A stretch of DNA of 64,000 bases from Candidatus Gastranaerophilales bacterium (lineage in GTDB: Bacteria; Cyanobacteriota; Vampirovibrionia; Gastranaerophilales; Gastranaerophilaceae). This document shows positions 45,923 through 57,239 of the stretch, in pieces; within the stretch, counting starts at the first letter, position 1; the number at the start of each line of letters is the position of its first letter. Where the stretch lies: the NCBI GenBank assembly GCA_944325865.1, contig CALVBS010000004.1, positions 124,001 through 188,000 of the forward strand. Reading direction: 5' to 3'. The notes under the pieces were generated by a model that was not told the origin of the DNA, searched no databases, and saw only the letters and a program-made list of their open reading frames with translations. The position numbers were made by a program, and so were the translations under genes.

Positions 45923-46723
45923 TTATCTACAATAAAATGTCTGCATATTATAGACTTGACAGCTCTGTCCGTTCCAATAAACACTATTAGGACATCTTCC
46001 CTGACTATCAGCCTGACCGCGTAATGAATTACATTCTTCTGCAGTTTTACAACCAGCAGGATCGTCAACCGAACATGTACTGATATACTCAAGATCTGAT
46101 GTTACATCAGACAAAACACCGCTTCCTGAAAATCTGAATTTGTACAAATCTTTTCTAACTGTATTAGGATTTTTGCCGCCATTTACATCCGCAACAATCG
46201 CAAATGATGCCATTGTTGTATCATCAGGTAAAAGTCCATAAGTCATTCCATCAGGGGTTGAAAACATATAAGGAACATCTTCCCATTTAAATTGCGATTT
46301 ATCTTCTTTGCCTTGAATAATATAATCCTCAGGCATTGTTTCAGGTTTCAACCCTAAGGTAGTATCAACATTAATATTGAAAGCCTTCTTGTGTTCATTT
46401 GTTATACAGGCCTCATCTTTACAAGAATTAAACATAGGTAAATCTTTAACTTCATAAACCTGTGAGTCAGCCATCATTTTTTTATAACCATTAGCCAGAA
46501 TAGATTTTGATTTTGCATACTCTGTCTCTAAAACCTTGTCCTGTGTATTGTTAATAACAAGCGGAAGAGTCAATGCCGCAACAACACCAATAACACCCAG
46601 AGTAATTAAAACTTCTGCCAGTGTAAATGCATTATACTGTTTAACATTAGTCGTAAAGCCTTGCTGTGAAAGGGTACTAGAAAGCCCCCCCCCCGAAAGC
46701 ATAGTCATATCAATGCTTTTCAT
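45923..46723 (-). CDS. Prepilin-like protein with a poly-G tract in its leader (in frame)
   Basis: This 266-residue prepilin-like protein has the motif FTLAEVLITLGVIGVVAALT after an unusually long 32-residue leader. The leader begins MKSIDMTMLSGGGLSSTLSQ, and its Gly-Gly-Gly is coded by ten G (46685-46694). With ten G the frame runs through to the prepilin; nine or eleven would not. The start at 46723 follows GGAGG. A further in-frame ATG at 46756 lies at the expected transcription start and is not used. The body has ADVNGGKNPN and four or more C-terminal cysteine pairs (CSVDDPAGC, QSC, FYC). There is no HTH gene nearby. A glycosyltransferase follows in the same transcript. Confidence 0.87.
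   Translation of the reverse strand: MKSIDMTMLSGGGLSSTLSQQGFTTNVKQYNAFTLAEVLITLGVIGVVAALTLPLVINNTQDKVLETEYAKSKSILANGYKKMMADSQVYEVKDLPMFNSCKDEACITNEHKKAFNINVDTTLGLKPETMPEDYIIQGKEDKSQFKWEDVPYMFSTPDGMTYGLLPDDTTMASFAIVADVNGGKNPNTVRKDLYKFRFSGSGVLSDVTSDLEYISTCSVDDPAGCKTAEECNSLRGQADSQGRCPNSVYWNGQSCQVYNMQTFYCR
46685..46694 (-). repeat. Ten-G homopolymer in prepilin leader (ON frame)
   Basis: Ten consecutive C on the plus strand are ten G in the coding strand, 9-12 codons after the start. In such an AT-rich genome this run is exceptional and is a classic substrate for slipped-strand mispairing. It encodes residues of the leader that prepilin peptidase would remove, so changes by three bases would be silent in the mature pilin, while changes by one or two would stop expression. 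Confidence 0.85.
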
Positions 46724-56278: not shown

Positions 56279-57052
56279 TTAATAATCCATATCCCAGCCG
56301 TTTTCAATAACTCTGGCTCCGCATCCATCACCTGTTGTATGTTTAGAAGGTCCGCAGCTGTTATTTTTTTTCCAGTAACCGCTGTCATCATGATTATTAA
56401 ACATTGAATACTTCATACTGCCTTTAGGCACTAAATGACCTGTTGATGTTAAGTCAAACCAGAAAATATCGCGTCCGTACTTATTTGGTTTTGCAGTCCC
56501 GTTTATGTCAAACCTGAAATAACCTTGCAACATATAATCTCCTGTTGTTTCATCCGCAATATTTTCATATAAAGGAACACCTCTTGATTTTTTCCAGAAT
56601 CTGAAATAATGATTTATTGCACTGCCGTCAGGTAAAATCAAATAATAGTGTCCTTTTGAATTATTATCATCACGCCCGTCCAGCATATATGTTTTTAAAT
56701 CTTCAGTCGGCAAAAACTCTTTTGCCCCGAGAGCTTTATTAAGCTCATTAAAAAATGTTTCACATCCGTAATCTGCAGGATAATGACCTTCTTCACATTG
56801 AGCCCAGGTTATCGACTGAAACAAAGATGTGTCCTCAAGACTATCGGCCATTTCTGATGCCATTATATACGTAAATCTCTGCTCTAAAAAAGAAACTGCT
56901 TTTTTTAATTTTACTGTATAAACAAAATTGTTATAACTGTGAATAAATGCCGGAAGAGTCATAGCTGCAACTATTCCGATTATGCCGAGCGTTATAAGAA
57001 CTTCCGCAAGCGTAAATGCGGACTTTCTCTTTTTGAGTAAATCCTCCGGCAC
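56279..57052 (-). CDS. Prepilin-like protein downstream of a poly-G tract (frame broken from the upstream start)
   Basis: This 257-residue prepilin-like protein, read from a GTG at 57052, has leader MPEDLLKKRKSA then FTLAEVLITLGIIGIVAAMT. It carries the DINGTAKPNKYGRDIFWFDL motif and ends CGARVIENGWDMDY. A better start exists at 57182: AAAGGAGAG lies five bases before that ATG, but ten G at 57143-57152 put it out of frame, giving a stop after 15 codons. Removal of one G would fuse it without interruption to this gene, giving a 55-residue leader. A weaker internal site (GGGAGG ten bases before the GTG) may still allow expression, so OFF is not certain. Confidence 0.82.
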   Translation of the reverse strand: MPEDLLKKRKSAFTLAEVLITLGIIGIVAAMTLPAFIHSYNNFVYTVKLKKAVSFLEQRFTYIMASEMADSLEDTSLFQSITWAQCEEGHYPADYGCETFFNELNKALGAKEFLPTEDLKTYMLDGRDDNNSKGHYYLILPDGSAINHYFRFWKKSRGVPLYENIADETTGDYMLQGYFRFDINGTAKPNKYGRDIFWFDLTSTGHLVPKGSMKYSMFNNHDDSGYWKKNNSCGPSKHTTGDGCGARVIENGWDMDY

Positions 57053-57134
57053 ATTCGTGCCACCTCCCTTACCATGGAGGCTTTTAGATTTTATATTTTC
57101 CGAACCACCTAAAAACTCAAGCGGAGAGCTTAAA

Positions 57135-57182
57135 TTACCTTGCCCCCCCCCCGAAAAAGCTTACTATACTTAACTTTTGCAT
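57135..57182 (-). other. Short open frame from the upstream start of the phase-variable prepilin
   Basis: Starting at the ATG at 57182, which has the strongest ribosome site of the locus, the frame reads MQKLSIVSFFGGGAR and stops. After one G less in the tract the same start would run through QGNLSSPLEFLGGSEN and on to the prepilin with no stop. This is the aborted form of the gene rather than an independent peptide. Confidence 0.75.
57143..57152 (-). repeat. Ten-G homopolymer in prepilin leader (OFF frame)
   Basis: Ten consecutive C on the plus strand (ten G in the coding strand), ten codons after the ATG at 57182. Nine (or twelve) G would restore the frame; eleven gives a 17-codon ORF. The same ten-G length and the following Leu-Ser-Ser codons also appear in the prepilin at 46.7 kb, so the arrangement is unlikely to be chance. 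Confidence 0.85.
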
Positions 57183-57239
57183 ATTTACTCTCCTTTTTTA
57201 TTATATATACTTAAATTGTAAACTATTTTTATAGAAATT

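Follow-up and report, generated by a model that had tools for sequence, protein, structure and literature searches.

Poly-G tracts in Gastranaerophilales prepilin leaders suggest that a large set of pilins is switched ON and OFF by slipped-strand mispairing

Introduction

Pathogens provide the best-known cases of phase variation through slippage of repeats. In Neisseria, about 11 dispersed paralogous opa genes encode surface proteins, each of which is switched singly by slippage of CTCTT repeats in the coding sequence of the leader peptide (PMC3745409). A related arrangement is found in Bifidobacterium breve, in which a short ORF precedes the ORF of a sortase-pilus pilin at the loci bbr_0113 and bbr_1889, with a G10/G11 tract between the two; the state in the genome sequence is OFF, and the mixture of tract lengths changes in the mouse gut (PMC9187656). 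Campylobacter genomes contain many poly-G contingency genes, with a median of 20 in C. jejuni, and in draft genomes the proportion of them that is ON nearly equals what neutral drift would give (PMC6321876). A literature search on Gastranaerophilales (Melainabacteria) retrieved no report of phase variation by repeat slippage and nothing relevant on pili, pilin or homopolymers.

Here, a prepilin gene with a poly-G leader is described that lies in a 64,000-nucleotide stretch of Candidatus Gastranaerophilales DNA, referred to as the window, together with its relatives in the source genome and the family. As with Opa, many dispersed paralogues are present, and every one of them has its own leader containing a repeat prone to slippage. 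In contrast to Opa, which is an outer-membrane protein with a CTCTT pentamer, these genes encode N-methyl prepilins with poly-G tracts, are mostly OFF, and belong to uncultured gut commensals of a cyanobacterial lineage. While the two B. breve loci encode sortase-dependent LPXTG pili, type IV-type prepilins are concerned here, at 13 loci in the source genome and at as many as tens of loci in related genomes; the LPXTG motif is absent from the window pilin sequence. The difference from Campylobacter lies in an ON share of about 10% and in the dominance of prepilins and of a shared leader design. The system in the window is like those of Opa, B. breve and Campylobacter in its working, and it belongs to neither the Opa family nor the family of sortase pili.

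Genomes and definitions

The source genome (G000) comprises 2.03 Mb in 14 contigs. One genome per species was used, and tract lengths (n, number of G) are given as assembled. All listed tracts were taken for G011 and G003, most of those of G004, and samples for G033, G021, G024, G010, G031, and G027. Start codons were picked by rule, with the double-ATG leaders L049 and L179 being ambiguous. A pilin ORF was regarded as intact when it comprised at least 150 residues after the cleavage motif, and OFF copies that ran off the end of the retrieved sequence were left out of this count.

The prepilin gene of the window

The features of the gene and of a second tract gene in the window are compiled in Table 1.

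Table 1. Positions of leader and prepilin features in the window
Feature	Position	Strand	Remark
Shine-Dalgarno sequence AAAGGAGAG of the leader	57188..57196	-	read directly
Short ORF MQKLSIVSFFGGGAR followed by a stop, 15 codons, product of the assembled G10 state	57135..57182	-	sequence reading
G10 tract, in-frame length plus one G (offset +1, OFF)	57143..57152	-	
Conserved leader element AAGCTCTCCGCTT directly 3' of the tract, with complementarity to GGAGAG in the Shine-Dalgarno sequence	57119..57131	-	
Leader insertion of a dispersed palindromic repeat (GCCTCC...GGGAGGTGGCACGAATGTGCCGGAGG), with GTG 57052 inside it	57043..57081	-	
Prepilin coding sequence counted from GTG; start is ATG 57182 if the leader is in frame	56279..57052	-	
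N-terminal methylation / prepilin cleavage motif KSA/FTLAEVLITLG	56957..57034	-	G000:C4:180957-181034
Second G10 tract, in frame (ON) as assembled	46685..46694	-	
Gene of the second poly-G prepilin, MKSIDMTMLSGGGLSSTLSQQG...AFTLAEVLITLG; leader and pilin share one frame in the assembly	45923..46723	-	

The leader starts with the ATG at 57182-57180, and its spacing of Shine-Dalgarno sequence, ATG, and tract is common to 13 prepilin leaders of the source genome. An earlier note on this DNA had read the Shine-Dalgarno sequence, the start codon, the ten-G tract, and the stop after 15 codons from the letters alone, and every coordinate checks. Its further reading, that a tract of nine G would open the frame, is borne out by 43 open codons down to the GTG, followed by KSAFTLAEVLITLG / FTLAEVLITLG and the end of the gene at 56279. 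The placement of the tract in the leader also holds, as the ten G lie upstream of the prepilin cleavage motif.

The prepilin sequence matches the N_methyl family PF07963 over the cut-off (E 3e-6) and matches this family only. Its structural model (pLDDT 69) has an N-terminal helix of 52 residues, and the top PDB match, the pilin FimA, is not significant (E 0.11). An A24 prepilin peptidase is encoded in the source genome (PF01478, over cut-off). Poly-G leaders, each in the +1 frame, also precede homologues of the window pilin in G006 (two) and G007, which share 34-36% identity with it. In the homologues of G003 (L087) and G012 (L088), the leader has the form of an upstream ORF, and the remaining examined homologues are without a poly-G leader.

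The element AAGCTCTCCGCTT occurs in seven exact copies in the source genome, six of them behind a G tract. A role as a required anti-Shine-Dalgarno sequence was rejected: several G011 leaders are without any such element, which is thus not universal.

G runs in the source genome

The window contains two G10 runs, compared with a mean of 0.34 matches to G8 in shuffled sequences. The second, in-frame tract was overlooked in the earlier note, as were the genome- and family-wide occurrence of the leader and the repeat around the internal GTG. In the whole source genome, 18 G runs of length 10-12 and none of length 8 or 9 are present, while a first-order model of this genome predicts about 0.3 runs of at least 10 G and about 8 runs of 8-9 G. 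Prepilin gene leaders account for 13 of the 18 runs, each lying 29-33 nt downstream of an ATG that is preceded by a strong Shine-Dalgarno sequence; the total number of N-methyl prepilins in this genome is 72.

The genome encodes MutS, and loss of mismatch repair was accordingly rejected as the source of slippage; compared with organisms that lack mismatch repair, slippage may therefore be slower. Tracts also occur in long autotransporter-like repeat proteins, namely a G10 tract in the source genome (L022, G000:C5:202555-202564) and a G17 tract in G011 (L125).

Reading frames and ON/OFF states

For the genomes other than G003, reading back from the pilin reaches the tract without a stop codon in about 131 of 137 cases, and the leaders are up to 218 codons long. 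When the other two frames were read over the same stretches, leaders of at least 20 codons were open in 1 of 140. The open pilin frame and the closed other frames indicate that the leader is selected as coding sequence in the frame of the pilin.

As assembled, 13 of 130 fused leaders are ON and 117 are OFF, 85 of the latter in the +1 and 32 in the -1 frame. Compared with an expected ON share of 1/3, this yields p ~5e-10, a value that is only a guide as related copies were counted as independent. The short ORFs of the 117 OFF leaders have a median length of 16 codons, and the pilin ORF is intact in 110 of the 116 OFF copies that could be assessed. The residue preceding the F of the cleavage motif is A in 78 and G in 52 of the 130 leaders.

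The OFF copies of a genome tend to lie on the same side of the in-frame length. OFF copies are mostly offset by +1 in Scatousia, G021, and G024, and by -1 in G033 (17 of 21). Within Scatousia, tracts of n=10, 11, 12, and 13 all occur in the +1 frame, in 5, 47, 14, and 2 copies, respectively, and a preferred tract length alone is therefore no explanation for this offset. In G033, the majority with n=10 is OFF and a minority with n=11 is ON; in G021, n=13 is OFF and n=12 is ON. The source genome itself contains the paralogues L024 (n=11, OFF) and L025 (n=10, ON), the leaders of which are about 83% identical. Such ON/OFF differences of one G between close paralogues are predicted by slippage. Neutral slippage also predicts that about 1/3 of the copies are ON and that both OFF frames are equally frequent, so that a common OFF direction per genome requires additional selection or a shared history of the cassettes. 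Our preferred but unproven explanation of the mostly-OFF, same-sided bias is selection for an OFF state with ON one slip away, combined with shared cassette ancestry.

A probable slippage switch and its alternatives

From the sequence comparisons, a large prepilin repertoire with most copies OFF appears likely to be switched ON and OFF by slipped-strand mispairing. A type IV-type prepilin would carry a hypermutable G tract in its translated leader, and slipped-strand mispairing would alter this tract reversibly by one G. With one tract length, leader and pilin would form a single frame, and after expression the leader would be cut off by the prepilin peptidase, leaving the mature pilin unchanged; with other tract lengths, translation would end after about 15-17 codons. 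For the window gene, the earlier suggestion of a phase-variable pilin is thus supported by comparison as far as a slippage-type ON/OFF leader in its OFF state is concerned, because L024 and L025 differ by one G and the leaders are open in the frame of the pilin. The part of this suggestion that does not stand is a start-site switch, in which the pilin is translated from the internal GTG 57052 while the tract is out of frame. This GTG is preceded by GGGAGG and lies in the pilin frame; nevertheless, both belong to the palindromic repeat, of which the source genome contains at least 8 copies that deviate at no more than 2 positions, some of them away from prepilins. In addition, the stretch between tract and motif is devoid of ATG, GTG, and TTG in 81 of the 130 leaders, which renders a start-site switch very unlikely. 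The repeat was also observed as GCCTCC..GGGAGGTGGCACG..GTGCCGGAGG at L322-L328, in pilin leaders and elsewhere.

A second alternative leaves the DNA unchanged: if the out-of-frame state were the normal one, slippage of RNA polymerase or ribosomal frameshifting could yield some full-length pilin. Polymerases slip on G runs, and the genus retains its +1 frame over four tract lengths as if the frame were selected; inside the genus, a programmed frameshift would account for the one-sided OFF bias. However, the opposite OFF direction in G033 is not compatible with any single programmed frameshift, and several genomes have in-frame copies that differ by one G from OFF paralogues. Programmed frameshifting was therefore discarded as a general account, and programmed recoding of the window gene is regarded as improbable. 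Assembled homopolymer lengths can also be wrong, and at one locus of B. breve the annotated length corresponds to a minority of the population (PMC9187656), so that the true tract of the window might be in frame. Yet the same OFF frame recurs in many genomes from different assemblies and with tracts of 10-13 G, and random error would explain neither the opposite offsets of different genera (+1 and -1) nor the recurring minority of ON copies; there is little chance that an assembly error explains the OFF state. Finally, the predominance of OFF copies could mean that these are decaying pseudogenes or a silent archive. This is hardly credible, since each copy has kept its own Shine-Dalgarno sequence and ATG, the long leaders are open in the pilin frame, and nearly all assessable OFF copies encode an intact pilin, which argues against pseudogenes.

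With slipped-strand switching as the preferred reading, the window gene is one of 13 poly-G prepilins in the source genome, with many more in relatives. Each cell probably displays a small and changing subset of a large pilin repertoire, because most assembled copies are OFF and about 1 in 10 is ON. If this is true, a genome of these uncultured gut bacteria encodes from 13 to dozens of pilins, which switch independently of one another and are mostly OFF, and genome annotation misses or truncates many surface proteins of Gastranaerophilales. The system would then also be a test case for the evolution of large contingency repertoires, for which adhesion to shifting surfaces, immune escape, and pilus-using phages may be relevant.

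The leader in surface-polysaccharide genes

Poly-G tracts are also found in front of genes for Stealth-type capsule proteins (L172, L190), RgpF (L155, L213), DUF4422 proteins (L016), PIG-L (L248), and FkbM methyltransferases (L231), at or near the 5' end. The RgpF leaders are 85% (G011) and 94% (G003) identical to a prepilin leader, compared with 0.62 and 0.67 in shuffled controls. The resemblance of the DUF4422 leader of the source genome to prepilin leaders is not above that of shuffles.

Tracts in a separate upstream ORF

A different arrangement prevails in G003, in which leader and pilin are separate in 37 of the 43 leaders examined. Here, the tract lies in an ORF of its own, and the pilin follows with its own Shine-Dalgarno sequence and ATG about 163 nt past the tract. 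About 37 near-identical poly-G upstream ORFs with a predicted anti-Shine-Dalgarno sequence and a predicted hairpin are found among L120-L217 of this genome. With n=11, as in most copies, the ORF has 16 codons and ends about 60 nt before a conserved hairpin (28 copies aligned). With n=12, it has 33-49 codons, and its end falls in the range from 7 nt upstream to 44 nt downstream of the hairpin start in the copies that could be scored, with L187 (GTG start) and L198 (shifted geometry) as exceptions. RNAalifold predicts pairing of a conserved CCUCCG in the ORF with CGGAGG of the pilin Shine-Dalgarno sequence as well as pairing of the hairpin arms; these pairs are nearly invariant, and covariation therefore adds little support.

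In nearly all examined copies of G003, only the n=12 frame would take ribosomes over CCUCCG to the hairpin. It has tentatively to be considered that the tract is the switch of a phase-variable translational or transcriptional attenuator for the second, pilin-encoding cistron, a possibility suggested by these predicted structures and ORF ends. Among 146 genomes of the family, a strict pattern for the upstream-ORF form matched in G003 and once in G007, and L088 of G012 was recognized as this form by eye; an upstream-ORF cassette as a family-wide design was rejected on this basis. If true, the upstream-ORF version would be a new way for a slippery tract to control a gene, and the fused leaders and those of G003 would represent a portable slippage module with two uses that is shared with glycan genes.

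Distribution in the genus and family

The pattern SD-ATG-N18-34-G9 is present in 12 of 13 genomes of the genus Scatousia, with 7 to more than 140 raw matches each, and the reversed pattern used as a control is near zero in the genus genomes. Matches of the pattern scan came from Candidatus Scatousia and other Gastranaerophilales MAGs; one match in Burkholderiales (L046) is not a leader. Runs of G10 occur in 21 of 24 sampled genera of Gastranaerophilaceae. They are sparse in the other families of the order except for the MAG G051, which has 42 matches on one strand.

Some peculiarities were noticed in individual genomes. The ends of the G004 contigs C8, C10, C15, C16, C42, and C43 lie no more than tens of bases from a G tract, which looks as though repeated leaders or mixed tract lengths had broken the assembly. 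The same genome has prepilin leaders of 100-200 codons that consist of repeat-like peptides (SLVKGGGTVVPEG and similar; L127, L232, L235, L242) and are all open in frame, so repeat insertions seem to be tolerated by these leaders. In G027, which belongs to another genus, a different repeated element with G12-G13 tracts and no link to prepilins is found at L251, L257, L263, and L275.
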